From Solirubrobacteraceae bacterium (GTDB taxonomy: Bacteria; Actinomycetota; Thermoleophilia; Solirubrobacterales; Solirubrobacteraceae), in assembly GCA_017882455.1 (NCBI GenBank), contig JADGPL010000011.1, forward strand, positions 1-64,000: a stretch of DNA of 64,000 bases, read 5' to 3'. This document shows positions 34,370-39,501 of the stretch, in pieces. A program made the position numbers and the translations under genes. Position 1 is the first letter of the stretch, and every line of letters begins with the position of its first letter. The notes beneath the pieces were generated by a model. That model saw only the letters and a program-made list of their open reading frames with translations, had not been told where the DNA came from and did not search any database.

Positions 34370-35041
34370 TTGAGCACACTGGCCAAGAAGGTCCTGGGAG
34401 TGGGGAGCGCGGTCGTCGTTCTGGGCGTGCTGATCGGCCTTTACGTGGCCAGCTGGGCTACGAGCCAGCCGAATACGATCGTCGCCTCCGCCGCGCCGCC
34501 CCCGAGCGGCGGAACGCAGCTCACACTCGAGACGGTCGCCGCGATCGGGCCCAAGTACGAGCCCTCGCACCCCGACTGGGTCTCCTACCTGGTGCGCAAG
34601 GACAACAAGTGGATCCACAGCACGATCTACTCGGTGCCAGCCAACTCGGTCGTCCACGTGACGCTTTACCAGTACGACGGCGACAGCGGCCTGCGCAACC
34701 CGTTTCTCTCCCAGGTCCAGGGGACAGTTGGCGAGACCGAGACGGTGGACGGCAAGACGATCAACTCGATCCCGCCCGAAGAAGCCTCGCACACCTTCGT
34801 GATCCCGCAGCTCGGGGTGTTCGTGCCGCTCCCGGGCGTGCCGGAAGAAGCCAAGAACCAGTGCGAATTCGCGCCCTGTGAAGGCGCCGCGCACCGCACG
34901 ATCACCTTCAGCTTCCGCACCGGCAAGAAGGGTCGCTATCGCTGGCAGTGCTTCGTGCCCTGTGCGGCCGGCTACATCGACGGCTTTGGAGGGCCGATGC
35001 AGACGCTCGGCTACATGGACGGCTTCATCAACGTGGTCTAG
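34370..35041 (+). CDS. Membrane-anchored cupredoxin-like protein of the oxidase operon
   Basis: 223 aa. One N-terminal membrane segment (VLGVGSAVVVLGVLIGLYVASW, residues 8-29) anchors a periplasmic-side beta barrel. The C-terminal part resembles a copper site: His141 (ASHTFVIPQLGV), then Cys194 and Cys198 (RWQCFVPCAAG) and Met210 or Met216. Subunit II CuA has C-x3-C-x3-H-x2-M, but here no histidine follows the CX3C pair, so this is not a standard CuA centre. Two more cysteines (Cys165, Cys170) may form a disulfide. The TTG start at 34370 has GGGGAG five nt before it; GTG 34352 is an alternative. Stop-to-start distance to subunit II is 2 nt. It may be an electron-transfer or copper-delivery partner. 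Confidence 0.75.
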   Translation: MSTLAKKVLGVGSAVVVLGVLIGLYVASWATSQPNTIVASAAPPPSGGTQLTLETVAAIGPKYEPSHPDWVSYLVRKDNKWIHSTIYSVPANSVVHVTLYQYDGDSGLRNPFLSQVQGTVGETETVDGKTINSIPPEEASHTFVIPQLGVFVPLPGVPEEAKNQCEFAPCEGAAHRTITFSFRTGKKGRYRWQCFVPCAAGYIDGFGGPMQTLGYMDGFINVV

Positions 35042-35043
35042 CG

Positions 35044-35898
35044 ATGGCCGCTGAGACGCATCCGGGCACCCCGGAACCGAATCACGCGCGACGCTTCACC
35101 GCCCTGTGGGTGATCTCCTCGCTGATCGCCACGCCGCTGGTGATCTTCCTGCTCGGCCCGAGCCTGCCGCCGGGCAACGGCAGCGAACAGGCCTCGGGGC
35201 ACGTCACCGACAACACGGTGCTGCTGGCGATGGCCACGCCGGTCCTGCTGCTCGTCGTGATCTATCTGATCTACGCCTCGATCTTCTTTCGCCAGCCGAA
35301 GGGCGGCGTCCTCGAAGGTCCAGCCGTTCGCGGCGACTCGCGCGTCCAGACCGCCTGGGTCGTGATCACCTCGGTGCTGGTTCTCTCGCTCGCCGCCTAC
35401 GGCACCGTGCGCCTGCTCGCCGACAACGGCGCAGGTTCGGGCTCGGGCCCCAAGCCGCTGACGGTGCCGAAGGGCCCGAAGCTTCCGGTCCAGGTGATCG
35501 CGCAGCAGTGGGCCTTCACCTATCGCTATCCGACCTACGGGGGCGTCGAGACCACCCACCTCGAGCTTCCCGACAACGAGATGGTCGAACTGCACGTCAC
35601 CTCGATCGACGTGATCCACTCGTTCTGGGCCTACAAGCTCGGGGTCAAGGCCGACGCCAACCCCGGCGTCGACAACATCGCCTTCGTCAAGCCCACCCAC
35701 GAACAGTCCTTCGAGGTCCGCTGCTCGGAGCTCTGCGGCATCTGGCACGGCTACATGTTCGACAAAGGCCACGTCGTCTCTCCCGCCGCCTTTGAAACCT
35801 GGATCCACGAACAACAGACGAAGTTCGCACCGGCCACCAAGGTGCTGCCGCCCTACAGCAAGACCTACTCACCCGAACCGACGAGGCGCGCAGAATGA
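35044..35898 (+). CDS. ctaC: Cytochrome c oxidase subunit II
   Basis: 284 aa with two membrane helices (about residues 20-40 and 60-82), plus another hydrophobic stretch at 103-122, before the cupredoxin domain. A full set of CuA ligands is present: His192 (DVIHSFW), then Cys227, Glu229, Cys231, His235 and Met238 in CSELCGIWHGYM. It takes electrons from cytochrome c or another donor and passes them to subunit I. No C-terminal cytochrome c domain is attached (unlike caa3 types). The ATG lies 2 nt after the cupredoxin gene, and the stop overlaps subunit I (ATGA). Confidence 0.96.
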   Translation: MAAETHPGTPEPNHARRFTALWVISSLIATPLVIFLLGPSLPPGNGSEQASGHVTDNTVLLAMATPVLLLVVIYLIYASIFFRQPKGGVLEGPAVRGDSRVQTAWVVITSVLVLSLAAYGTVRLLADNGAGSGSGPKPLTVPKGPKLPVQVIAQQWAFTYRYPTYGGVETTHLELPDNEMVELHVTSIDVIHSFWAYKLGVKADANPGVDNIAFVKPTHEQSFEVRCSELCGIWHGYMFDKGHVVSPAAFETWIHEQQTKFAPATKVLPPYSKTYSPEPTRRAE

Positions 35899-37793
35899 GC
35901 ACGACCGCAGCAGCCGCATCCACCCCGCAGCCGATCGGGCGTCCGCTGTGGCGCAAGCTGATCGGCTTCAACCTGCTGACCGCCGTGATCCTCGGCGTGG
36001 GCGGCTACTACCTGGGCTGGTTCATCGGGCATCAGATCTCCGGGAAAAGCTTCGAATTCCAGACCGCGACCGACGAGAACGACGTCGCGCTGTTGCTCGC
36101 CTACTTCTTCGGCGTCGTCGGCTTCCTGATCGGCCTGGGCTTCGCCAACTACCCGGTCTCGCGCCTGCTCGGCAAGCCGGCCTCGCTGCGCGAGAAGGAG
36201 GAGCAGGGCATCGGGCGCTACTTCGGCCTGTGCACCGACCACAAGGTCGTGGGCATCCAGTATCTGGTGGGCATCGGGCTGTTCTTCTTCATCGGCGGTC
36301 TGAACGCGATGCTGATCCGGACTGAGCTGCTGCATCCCGTCCCCACCTTCGTGGGACCCAATCAATACCTATCCCTCGTCGGCATGCACGGCACGATGAT
36401 GATGGGAATGATGACCTCGGGCATCCTCGGCCCGTTCGCCAACTACTTCGTGCCGATCATGATCGGTGCCAGGCGCATGGCCTTCCCGCGGATCGAGGCG
36501 CTCACCTTCTGGCTGCTGATGGCCGCTGGGTTCATCCTCGTCTCGACGATCTTCTTCGGCGGCTTCCCCACCGGCTGGACCGGCTATGAGCCGCTCAACG
36601 ACCAAGCCGTCATGGGCATGGACTCATACATCTGCTTCTTCGCCCTCGTCGGGCTCTCGATGTGCCTGCTCGGCCTGAACATGATGGCCACGATCATCAC
36701 CATGCGCGCGCCCGGGCTGACGTGGTCGCGCCTGCCGATCTTCGTGTGGTCGGTGTTCGCAACCTCGGTACTGATGGTGCTGGCGGCGCCGATGCTGATC
36801 GCGACGCTGCTGATGGCGGCGCTGGACCGCACGATCAGCACCTCCTTCTTCGTCGCCGGGGGCGGCGGGAGCTCCTACCTGTTCGAGAACCTGTTCTGGT
36901 TCTTCGGGCACCCCGAGGTCTACATCCTCGCGCTGCCCGGATTCGGCATCGTGCTGGAGCTGCTGCCCGTGTTCACGCGCAAGCCGCTGTGGGGCTACCG
37001 CCTGGCGGTCTCGGGCATGCTCGGCGTGAGCCTCCTGAGCTTCTTCGTGTGGCAGCACCACCTGTTCGTGAGCGGCATCAACGCCGATCTGCGCCCCTTC
37101 TACATGCTCTCCACCGAGATCATCTCGGTGCCCACCGGCTTCATCTTCCTGTGCTTCATGGGCACCATGTGGAAGTCGCGAACGTCCTTCACGGTGCCGA
37201 TGCTGTTCTGCGTCGCCTGGGCCTTCAACTTCCTGCTCGGGGGCCTGTCAGGCGTGTTCCTGTCGGACAGCCCGAGCGACACGGACACGCACGGGAGCTT
37301 CTTCGTGATGGCCCACTTCCACTACACGATCATGGGCGGGCTGATCTTCACGTTCTTCGCGGGCATCTACTACTGGGTACCCAAGATGACCGGGCTGCGC
37401 TTCAACGAGCGCCTGTCGAAGATCCACTTCTGGAGCATGTTCGTGGCCTTCAACTCGACCTTCCTGCCGCTGTTCGTGCTGGGTATGGAGGGCATGCCCA
37501 GACGCGTGAGCACCTACTCCCCGAGCCTGCAGGCGCTGAACGTGTGGGTATCGATCTCCGCGTTCGTGCTCGGGCTCTCGATGCTGGTGTTTCTCGTAAA
37601 CGCCGTCTACTCGCTGATCTTCGTGCGGTTGCGCGCCGAGTCCAATCCGTGGCGCTCCAAGTCGCTTGAGTGGCAGGTGCCGACGCCGGTGCCGGTCAAC
37701 AACTTCGAGCAGATCCCGGTGTTCGACTCCGATCCCTACGACTACGGCACGCCCTTGACCGTGGGCGGGGCGCCGGCCACGGCGGGAGCCTGA
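35895..37793 (+). CDS. ctaD: Heme-copper oxidase subunit I with unusual proton-channel residues
   Basis: 632-aa catalytic subunit. Metal ligands are complete: His165 (GMHGTMM) and His476 for the low-spin heme, His474 for the high-spin heme (MAHFHY), and His339, His388 and His389 for CuB (FGHPEVYI, WQHHLF). Glu341 and Tyr343 in GHPEVY are those of the A-type group. Two extra hydrophobic segments (about 23-45 and 66-84) precede the usual first helix. Aligned by eye to Paracoccus and Rhodobacter enzymes, the D-channel Asp of GAPDMAFPR is Arg194 (GARRMAFPR) and the Asn after it is Glu201. The K-channel Lys of PTGxK is Ile417 (PTGFI). The enzyme therefore lacks both standard channel-entrance residues. 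Confidence 0.95.
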   Translation: MSTTAAAASTPQPIGRPLWRKLIGFNLLTAVILGVGGYYLGWFIGHQISGKSFEFQTATDENDVALLLAYFFGVVGFLIGLGFANYPVSRLLGKPASLREKEEQGIGRYFGLCTDHKVVGIQYLVGIGLFFFIGGLNAMLIRTELLHPVPTFVGPNQYLSLVGMHGTMMMGMMTSGILGPFANYFVPIMIGARRMAFPRIEALTFWLLMAAGFILVSTIFFGGFPTGWTGYEPLNDQAVMGMDSYICFFALVGLSMCLLGLNMMATIITMRAPGLTWSRLPIFVWSVFATSVLMVLAAPMLIATLLMAALDRTISTSFFVAGGGGSSYLFENLFWFFGHPEVYILALPGFGIVLELLPVFTRKPLWGYRLAVSGMLGVSLLSFFVWQHHLFVSGINADLRPFYMLSTEIISVPTGFIFLCFMGTMWKSRTSFTVPMLFCVAWAFNFLLGGLSGVFLSDSPSDTDTHGSFFVMAHFHYTIMGGLIFTFFAGIYYWVPKMTGLRFNERLSKIHFWSMFVAFNSTFLPLFVLGMEGMPRRVSTYSPSLQALNVWVSISAFVLGLSMLVFLVNAVYSLIFVRLRAESNPWRSKSLEWQVPTPVPVNNFEQIPVFDSDPYDYGTPLTVGGAPATAGA

Positions 37794-37795
37794 GC

Positions 37796-38482
37796 ATGTC
37801 CTCACCCAGCGAAGAGCTGCCCCTCGGCCTGCCTGTCCTCCCGAAGGGAGGGATGGTCCCGCCGGTTCCGGCGGGGGTGGAGATCCCACCCGAGCCGCCT
37901 GACGTCGGGGCACGTGCGCTGTCGGTCGCCGCGCGACTGCTGTGCGGCGCGAGCACCTTCTTCTTCCTGGCCTTCCTGTTCGCCTACTTCTACCTTCGCT
38001 CGATCAACCAGAACCACATGTGGCGCCCCGCGCACGTCAAACCCGACCAGGCGCTCGGCGCAGTGTTCATCGTCTGCGTGATCCTGAGCGTGATCATCAC
38101 GATCGTTGCCGGGCGCCAGATGAAGGCGGGCTCGCGCAGCTGGGTCGGGCCGGCGATAGGCGGCGTGGTGCTGGGGATCGTGGGAGTGGCGGTCCAGTGC
38201 GTGGAGTACACCAGCCAGCACTTCGGCCCCACCGACGGCGCCTTCGCCAGCGTGTTCTGCGCCTGGACCGGCTTCTACCTGATCGCGATGCTCGCCACGA
38301 TGTACTGGCTGGAGACCCAGGTCGCGACCGAGCTGCGCGCACGGCGCACACCCGCACATAGCGAGGGGGACATCGAGGAGCCCGACAAGCTGATTGCTCC
38401 CGGCCTCGACGCGGCCGTCTTCTACTGGGGCTTCCTGGGAGGCATCGGGGTCGTGACGTACGTGACGCTGTACCTCCTGTAG
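37796..38482 (+). CDS. ctaE: Cytochrome c oxidase subunit III
   Basis: 228 aa with five predicted membrane helices. A proline-rich cytoplasmic start (PPVPAGVEIPPEPP) precedes the first helix (ARLLCGASTFFFLAFLFAYFYLRS), which carries the typical FxxxFxxYFYLR pattern. Later segments include GAFASVFCAWTGFYLIAMLATMYWLE and AVFYWGFLGGIGVVTYVTLYLL. It stabilises the catalytic core. A 2-nt gap separates it from ctaD, and its TAG stop overlaps the GTG of ctaG by one base. Confidence 0.92.
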   Translation: MSSPSEELPLGLPVLPKGGMVPPVPAGVEIPPEPPDVGARALSVAARLLCGASTFFFLAFLFAYFYLRSINQNHMWRPAHVKPDQALGAVFIVCVILSVIITIVAGRQMKAGSRSWVGPAIGGVVLGIVGVAVQCVEYTSQHFGPTDGAFASVFCAWTGFYLIAMLATMYWLETQVATELRARRTPAHSEGDIEEPDKLIAPGLDAAVFYWGFLGGIGVVTYVTLYLL

Positions 38483-39357
38483 TGCTCGCCACGGCGGCAG
38501 CGACCCCGGGCTTCTGGGACTGGTCGTTCAACCCGCCGCTGGTCCTGATCGTCGACCTCGCCGTGCTCTATTGGCTCGGCGACCGGCGCACCGTCACGCC
38601 CGCGCGCAAGCGCAACCCGCAGCGCTGGCGCAGCGTCTACTTCTACGCCGGCCTCGCCGTGCTCGCGATCGCGCTGGCCTCACCGGTGGAGCTCCTCAGC
38701 GCGCAGCTCTTCTGGGTGCACATGCTCCAGCACGTGCTGCTGCTGGTGGTGGCCGCGCCGCTGATCGTGCTCTCGCGCCCGTGGATCAGGATCTGGCGGT
38801 GCCTGCCGCTCGACACGCGGCGCTGGCTGGGACGGGGCCTCAGCCAGGGGGAGCACACGGCGCCGCTGCGCGCGCTCAGCCGCGCCCTCGGCCGGCCCGC
38901 CACCGGCTTCGTCCTCTTCTCGGGCGTGCTGCTTGCCTGGCACATCCCGGCCATGTTCGACGCCACGCTCCGCTCGAGTGCCCTGCACGCCCTCGAGCAC
39001 ACCCTGTTCTTCACGACCGCGATCATGTTCTGGAAGCAGGTGATCCCCTCGGCCCCGCTACACGCCAGCCTCGCGGCACCGCAGCGCGTTCTCTACCTCG
39101 TCGGCGCCATGATCGTGAGCTGGGCGCTGGCGGTCGTGCTGGCGCTCGCGCCACACCCGCTGTATGACTTCTATGCCAACCAGACCCATCGTCCGGGCGG
39201 GCTCTCCGCGATCGGCGATCAACACCTCGCCGCCGGCATAATGTGGGTGCCCGGATCGATCACCTTCCTGATCGTCGTCTTCGTCTACCTCAACCGCTGG
39301 CTGACGCCCGTCGAGTCCGGGCAGTCCCGGACCCCCCGGCTGGCAGGCGAGCACTAG
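38482..39357 (+). CDS. ctaG: Cytochrome c oxidase assembly protein CtaG (caa3 type)
   Basis: 291-aa polytopic membrane protein (about seven helices) of the caa3_CtaG family, a copper-insertion assembly factor unrelated to the Cox11 type. Signature parts are FWVHMLQHVLLLVVAAPLIVLSRP (about residues 75-98), GVLLAWHIPAMFDATLRSSALHALEHTLFF (about 150-180) and DQHLAAGIMWVPGSITFLIV (about 255-275). The histidines in HMLQH, AWHIP, HALEH and DQHLA are the likely metal-binding residues. The GTG start is coupled to the ctaE stop (TAGTG). Confidence 0.9.
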   Translation: MLATAAATPGFWDWSFNPPLVLIVDLAVLYWLGDRRTVTPARKRNPQRWRSVYFYAGLAVLAIALASPVELLSAQLFWVHMLQHVLLLVVAAPLIVLSRPWIRIWRCLPLDTRRWLGRGLSQGEHTAPLRALSRALGRPATGFVLFSGVLLAWHIPAMFDATLRSSALHALEHTLFFTTAIMFWKQVIPSAPLHASLAAPQRVLYLVGAMIVSWALAVVLALAPHPLYDFYANQTHRPGGLSAIGDQHLAAGIMWVPGSITFLIVVFVYLNRWLTPVESGQSRTPRLAGEH

Positions 39358-39366
39358 GAGAACTCA

Positions 39367-39501
39367 ATGCCAGACGTAATCCCCATCGCCTCGGGCTTCC
39401 TGACCGGCTCGATCCTCACGCTCGTGCTCCCGCTCGGCGTGTTGATCCTGGTGGCCATCTGGTACGTGATCCTGTGGCGAAACGGCTCAGGCGAACGCTG
39501 A
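39367..39501 (+). CDS. 44-aa single-helix membrane peptide at the end of the oxidase operon
   Basis: A short frame with a very good ribosome site (AGGAG six nt before the ATG), nine nt after ctaG. The peptide begins MPDVIPIASGFLTGS, has one hydrophobic helix (LTLVLPLGVLILVAIWYVILW, about residues 17-37) and ends RNGSGER. Small subunit-IV-like peptides of this kind are common companions of heme-copper oxidases, but I cannot match it to a named family. It ends 10 nt before the end of the convergent sco gene. Confidence 0.78.
   Translation: MPDVIPIASGFLTGSILTLVLPLGVLILVAIWYVILWRNGSGER

Follow-up and report, generated by a model that had tools for sequence, protein, structure and literature searches.

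The 64,000-nucleotide stretch analyzed here (the "window"; positions 1 to 64,000 of contig JADGPL010000011.1, forward strand, Solirubrobacteraceae bacterium assembly GCA_017882455.1) encodes a heme-copper oxidase with an altered subunit I: the residues at the entrances of both standard proton-input pathways, the D and K routes, are replaced. This soil-bacterial protein is related to the enzyme that consumes oxygen in human respiration. On balance, we regard this enzyme as a CuA-bearing O2 reductase of family A that has no K route and a remodeled D route, in which the entrance carboxylate resides at position 139. Residue equivalents are given in R. sphaeroides numbering unless stated otherwise, and R. 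sphaeroides 1M56 served as the reference for the explicit alignment. A check of open reading frames (ORFs) located the genes of the oxidase operon at window positions 34370-39357, where a preliminary description of this DNA had placed them. The features on which the argument turns are these:

35895..37793, + strand: subunit I (COX1, 632 aa); PF00115 at 421 bits, alignments to solved structures, AlphaFold model
35973..36137, + strand: two extra N-terminal transmembrane (TM) helices of subunit I, residues 27-49 and 63-81 (the "2TM" trait); AlphaFold secondary structure
36474..36476, + strand: Arg194 codon of subunit I (D132 position, D-route entrance); alignments
36495..36497, + strand: Glu201 codon of subunit I (N139 position), proposed new D-route carboxylate; alignments
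36915..36923, + strand: Glu341-Val342-Tyr343 codons of subunit I (E286 and the cross-linked Tyr, Y288); alignment
36954..36956, + strand: Leu354 codon of subunit I (S299 position, K route); alignment to 1M56
37116..37127, + strand: Glu408 to Ser411 codons of subunit I, helix VIII (R. sphaeroides 353-356); alignment
37143..37145, + strand: Ile417 codon of subunit I (K362 position, K route); alignments
35347..35349, + strand: Gln102 codon of subunit II (E101(II) of R. sphaeroides, the K-route entrance Glu); alignment

Residues kept and lost in subunit I

Both its COX1 fold and its sequence affinity place subunit I in family A. The protein matched solved mycobacterial aa3 oxidases with an E-value of about 1e-128 (phmmer), compared with 4e-7 for the B-family ba3 enzyme; against TIGR02891 it scored 552.6 bits, under the equivalog cut-off of 670.75. 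About 495 residues of the AlphaFold model (mean predicted local distance difference test score, pLDDT, of 85) superposed on subunit I of R. sphaeroides at 1.1-1.2 A (Z 53), which excludes misalignment.

All heme and CuB histidines were retained, as were T352 and arginines 481/482. Also in register were E286 (E341 in subunit I), Y288 (Y343), N207 (N262), N121 (N183), T359 (T414), and Y33 (Tyr123); the preliminary description had likewise reported that the metal ligands and the Glu of the GHPEVY motif were present. It had further held that the D-channel Asp is Arg194, the Asn that follows it Glu201, and the K-channel Lys Ile417. The phmmer and 1M56 alignments agree on all three assignments (D132, N139, and K362, respectively); neither places an Asp or Lys at the channel positions, and the AlphaFold superposition concurs. 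The two extra N-terminal hydrophobic segments that it noted are helices in the model. These observations were correct but understated: S299 (Leu354), S201 (Met256), and E101(II) are also lost, M353 and A356 have become Glu408 and Ser411 on helix VIII, and the K route is more thoroughly lost than had been claimed.

The A1, A2, B, and C types have channel-based definitions (PMC3084760). In P. denitrificans numbering, the A1 D-route residues Asp124, Asn131, and Ser193 are replaced by Arg194, Glu201, and Met256, and Asn113, Asn199, Tyr35, and Glu278 are retained as Asn183, Asn262, Tyr123, and Glu341. Among the A1 K-route residues, Lys354 and Ser291 are replaced (Ile417 and Leu354) and Thr351 and Tyr280 retained (Thr414 and Tyr343).

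The clade carrying the changed D site

Searches of whole genomes and GTDB contigs yielded a clade of 124 homologues with the same D-site signature and about 50-90% identity to the window protein; the frames were open in over 120 homologues. Position 132 was never Asp in the 122 members covered (R 117, K 3, N 1, G 1), position 139 was predominantly Glu (E 118, Q 3, S 2; 123 members), and position 362 was never Lys (I 88, T 22, V 9, L 4). Ser was retained at the S299 position in 20 of 124 members, and M, L, I, or V occupied the S201 position in 122 of 124. Other elements were strongly conserved: Glu at E286 and Tyr at Y288 (124/124 each), Asn or Asp at N207 (124/124), Y33 (121/121), N121 (112/122), and Glu408 and Ser411 (123/123 each). 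The six His metal ligands, the helix VI tyrosine (HPEVY), R481/R482, W172, and Y175 were invariant. Outside the clade, D132 occurred with N139 in all 21 K-less relatives; all 41 sampled Lys-bearing relatives kept D132 and, barring rare outliers, N139. Because the same changes recur in 124 homologues while the Lys-bearing relatives keep D132 and N139, the substitutions are not due to chance.

Loss of the K route extends beyond this clade and beyond subunit I. E101(II) was Glu in 35/35 K362-bearing relatives, 0/21 K-less relatives that keep D132, and 3/84 clade members, where its replacement was mostly Gln. Judged from these alignments, the two subunits lost their K-route residues (K362, S299, and E101(II)) in concert. 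Where the Lys was lost, helix VIII gained Glu408 and Ser411, and Asn445 and Asp458 were gained as well. Glu408 was found in every K-less member and in no sampled K362-bearing sequence, and all 21 K-less, D132-keeping relatives had both Glu408 and Ser411. By this distribution, loss of the Lys with gain of Glu408/Ser411 is a property of a group wider than the clade.

A tree made without Acidithiobacillus sequences nests the clade beside A2-type 2TM enzymes of Actinomycetota and gives an order to these events. The ladder begins with A2-type 2TM enzymes in which the D, N, and K residues are intact (L182-L185). K was then lost and Glu408 gained, with D, N, and the YSHPAVY motif kept (node support 1.0; L127-L129, L168-L171, L175, L177, L180, and L181); the loss of E101(II) falls here with that of K, before the gain of E286. 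Next, GHPEVY, and with it E286, was acquired with D and N still present (support 1.0; L125, L131, L154, L172-L174, L176, L178, L179, and L187). Last came the clade itself, with D132 replaced and N139 changed to Glu (support 0.915, parent 1.0). Both of these changes map to one branch, between a 106-tip node (1.0) and a 96-tip node (0.915). No sequence combining Asp132 with Glu139 was found among those sampled; the natural combinations D132N/N139E and D132G/N139E occur in L148 and L149, respectively.

Five clade members lack Glu139. Three of them, from one lineage (L087, L090, and L188), carry Asp at N207, and L052 has a Glu at residue 212 of helix III, 11 residues past 201, where helical periodicity suggests that it shares a face with 201. 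A carboxylate is therefore found in the D route in four of the five, as expected if the route needs a carboxylate whose position is flexible.

The oxidase occurs in Actinomycetota and in a Chloroflexota-like second phylum. Of the genomes sampled, it was present in about 55 of 398 from the window's class, 27 of 201 from the family of Trebonia kvetii, 12 of 251 from the phylum of a Chloroflexota-labelled metagenome-assembled genome (MAG; G508), and 12 of 296 from the class of a Microthrix-labelled MAG (G514). Isolates that have it are T. kvetii, with two copies, and Acidiferrimicrobium sp. IK. Record titles also named Burkholderiales, Acidobacteriota, Gemmatimonadaceae, and Chlamydiae; the two such sequences tested (L051, Burkholderiales; L050, Acidobacteriota) group with the window's class, and the titles look wrong. 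Among the matches listed in a plasmid search were canonical oxidases alone, at <46% identity. Most examined genomes with the clade oxidase hold one or two further COX1 genes.

Several side observations accompany this survey. The window's own genome has two more COX1 genes, a canonical A1 (L001, G000:C40:38383-39720) and a 2TM A2-type (L002, 44266-45588 of the same contig), each with D132, N139, and K362; it has one CtaA. In subunit I, residue 467 (window 37293-37295) is a Gly in place of D412, a ligand of the non-redox Mg; the same Gly occurs in 95 of 96 sequences of the clade and in the K-less relatives with GHPEVY. Since H411 is retained in these proteins while D412 is Gly, the Mg site near the water/proton exit may be altered. 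Channel carboxylates have been displaced independently a second time in an unrelated long COX1 frame on a Pseudosulfitobacter plasmid (L141, 1456-4020), where position 353 is Glu, K362 is Gln, N139 is Ser, and N207 is Glu. Finally, in two divergent heme-copper subunits from the window's class (L119 and L121), Glu stands in for K362 and E286 is replaced by Leu or Val.

Proposed routes of proton uptake

How might protons enter such an oxidase? In the reading that we favor, the mouth carboxylate Asp132 has been replaced by Arg or Lys, and Glu201, two helix turns inward, would take over its role. Glu201 would receive protons from the cytoplasm and hand them on as the acceptor and donor of the D route, its pKa tuned by Arg193/Arg194 at the mouth. 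Protons would then pass via Asn262 (N207) to Glu341 (E286); Glu201 would carry the chemical protons and the pumped ones, if any. Because the K route is gone, reductive-phase protons, which normally use it, would have to enter through the D route or else locally, along a path close to Glu408. In place of Lys362, Glu408 and Ser411 would help with the electrostatics around the active site or with proton transfer there.

The preliminary description had proposed that uptake uses other residues, perhaps the extra helices or Glu201, or else that pumping works in a different way. Glu201 is the best supported of these: it is Glu in 118 of 123 members, it arises on the very branch on which D132 is lost, and a substitute carboxylate occurs in four of the five members that lack it. 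Retention of the CuA, CuB, and heme ligands and of the assembly factors CtaG and SCO1 also counts for this reading. The suggestion concerning the helices did not hold up. Two extra N-terminal helices are a published COX1 trait (PMC8239418), the one that defines the 2TM COX1 group; the extension is also found where D, N, and K are all intact, namely in L002 from the same genome and in the Chloroflexota-type relatives L182-L185. Given this co-occurrence with canonical channels, we reject the helices as a new proton route.

Some evidence weighs against a D route re-entranced at Glu201. The main change arose only once, so the pairing of D132 loss with N139E amounts to a single event and two minor later adjustments. 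In L249, position 139 is Ser, and a search of its route revealed no further carboxylate. S201, a D-route serine that holds water, is kept in the K-less relatives (18 Ser and 3 Thr of 21) and became M, L, I, or V on or near the D132/N139 branch; this pattern could mean that the upper D route is degrading. Moreover, the ba3 oxidase of T. thermophilus, in which the D route is inactive, has an Arg (R100) at the D132 position (PMC12901375).

A narrower form of the favored reading is a one-route family-A oxidase that still pumps, having a single D pathway with its carboxylate moved from 132 to 139 and a K route abolished in both subunits. We put this forward tentatively, as a possibility somewhat short of even. 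In ordinary enzymes, uptake is blocked when Asp132 is removed, and pumping is decoupled by Asp, Thr, or Ser in place of Asn139 (PMC4321873, PMC12901375); N139D is sufficient by itself (PMC12901375). The clade resembles both N139D and an engineered R. sphaeroides D132N/N139D enzyme (Branden 2006, cited in PMC4550891) in that the carboxylate is off 132 and onto 139. The double change reportedly regained pumping. The clade differs from this engineered enzyme in being natural, in having Glu instead of Asp at 139 and Arg or Lys instead of Asn at 132, and in having no K route.

The same mutants make the most durable rival case, that of a naturally decoupled oxidase. Here, as in N139D, Glu201 would admit chemical protons rapidly, none would be pumped, and only the chemical charge separation would be conserved. 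Bacterial enzymes with D, T, or S at position 139 keep O2 reduction and lose pumping (PMC12901375), and the loss of S201 is in keeping with this explanation. A non-pumping side oxidase would also be affordable, given that most examined carrier genomes hold other COX1 genes and that those of the window's genome are canonical. However, E286 and the coupling machinery (R481/R482, W172, and Y175) are invariant, the engineered D132N/N139D enzyme reportedly pumps again, and we consider decoupling rather unlikely.

More improbable still is a dead D route, as in ba3, combined with a new K-like route through helices VIII and IX (Glu408, Ser411, Thr414, and Tyr343, with Asn445 and Asp458). The strict association of Glu408 with K362 loss speaks for such a route, as do the accompanying gains of Asn445 and Asp458 and the pairing of Glu at 353 with K362 loss in the unrelated Pseudosulfitobacter protein. 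The ba3 enzyme has Thr at K362 in addition to its Arg at D132 (PMC12901375), and Thr417 occurs in 22 clade members. Yet Glu408 was gained while D132 and N139 were still intact, so it is not a D-route replacement; the invariance of E286, N207, and Y33 would be needless; and S299 and E101(II) are gone. Glu408 also lies nine residues (about 13 A) outward of K362, and the inner half of the path has no identified polar residues. A K route of the B type was likewise rejected: its Ser/Tyr partners are absent (Leu occupies the S299 position), and Thr stands at K362 in just 22 of 124 members. Indeed, B-family enzymes lack D-route residues, whereas E286, N207, and Y33 are kept here; ba3 itself is without E286 and N207 and has another K route.

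An alignment error, a pseudogene, or a nitric oxide reductase (NOR) is scarcely credible: no point was found in favor, and the 1.1-1.2 A superposition, the more than 120 open homologues, the GHPEVY Tyr with HH/HFH ligands, the CuA subunit, and the assembly factors all stand against it. The NOR motifs are H-x-(Arom)-x-E and HHx(Arom)(Arom)x17E (PMC3084760); in the clade, the invariant Tyr343 stands at the NOR Glu position, and the spacing of Glu408 differs from that of the second motif.

Compared with the A1 enzymes of R. sphaeroides, P. denitrificans, and mycobacteria (aa3), then, the window enzyme shares the fold, the heme, CuB, and CuA ligands, E286, Y288, N121, N207, Y33, T359, and subunits I-III. 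It differs at D132 (Arg), N139 (Glu), S201 (Met), S299 (Leu), K362 (Ile), and E101(II) (Gln), and it adds Glu408/Ser411, the 2TM extension, and a cupredoxin. It is set apart from the A2 type, with its YSHPAVY motif, by the Glu found there in 124/124 clade members. The 2TM COX1 group (Degli Esposti et al. 2021, PMC8239418), for which that paper describes a basal clade with iron oxidizers, and the A2-type 2TM oxidases of Actinomycetota and Chloroflexota share the two N-terminal helices and are the nearest relatives in the tree, but D132 and N139 are intact in those sampled, as is K362 in the deepest of them. Several K-route losses have been described in archaeal COX1 (PMC8239418). In the openly readable literature, no account was found of a natural family characterized by the D132/N139 change.

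Operon context and implications

The remaining genes of the operon, and one gene that faces it, are as follows:

34370..35041, + strand: membrane-anchored cupredoxin, first operon gene (223 aa, TTG start); ORF
35044..35898, + strand: cytochrome c oxidase subunit II with a complete CuA site (H192, C227, E229, C231, H235, M238); COX2/CoxB profile matches
~37796..38482, + strand: cytochrome c oxidase subunit III; PF00510 at 35.4 bits, over the cut-off
38482..39357, + strand: CtaG-type CuB assembly factor; PF09678 at 184 bits
39512..40198, - strand: SCO1/SenC copper chaperone, facing the operon; PF02630 at 75 bits

The CuA ligands of subunit II were complete in 85/85 clade loci. In T. kvetii (L091:3124-4857), CtaG and SCO1 form one fused reading frame beside the operon, which is followed by a UbiA-family gene, a probable heme O synthase.

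No Pfam family matched the cupredoxin in a profile search. Its AlphaFold model (pLDDT 88.9) comprises one TM helix and a cupredoxin barrel; the best Foldseek matches were rusticyanin and CuA domains, and VIA-align placed CupA, nitrite reductase, nitrosocyanin, and rusticyanin close together for this protein. His141, Cys194-x3-Cys198, Met210, and Met216 are invariant, and the second CuA His is missing. The site thus looks like one of the CuA type without that His, possibly with a Met instead. Almost every clade locus has a homologue in the corresponding position, and K-less enzymes with GHPEVY are accompanied by the gene too, whether or not the D site has changed. This protein may serve the oxidase as a subunit for electron entry.

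Two questions of long standing have been studied with hand-made mutants: how substitutions at Asn139 come to decouple pumping, and why enzymes of family A require two input routes when one suffices in families B and C. The clade arrangement reproduces mutations that were previously only laboratory-made: the equivalent of K362I, S299L, E101(II)Q, D132R, and N139E has been fixed naturally in >120 sequences from two phyla. Living intermediates exist that have the K-route change alone, and the isolates T. kvetii and Acidiferrimicrobium sp. IK open direct experimental access to this family of oxidases.
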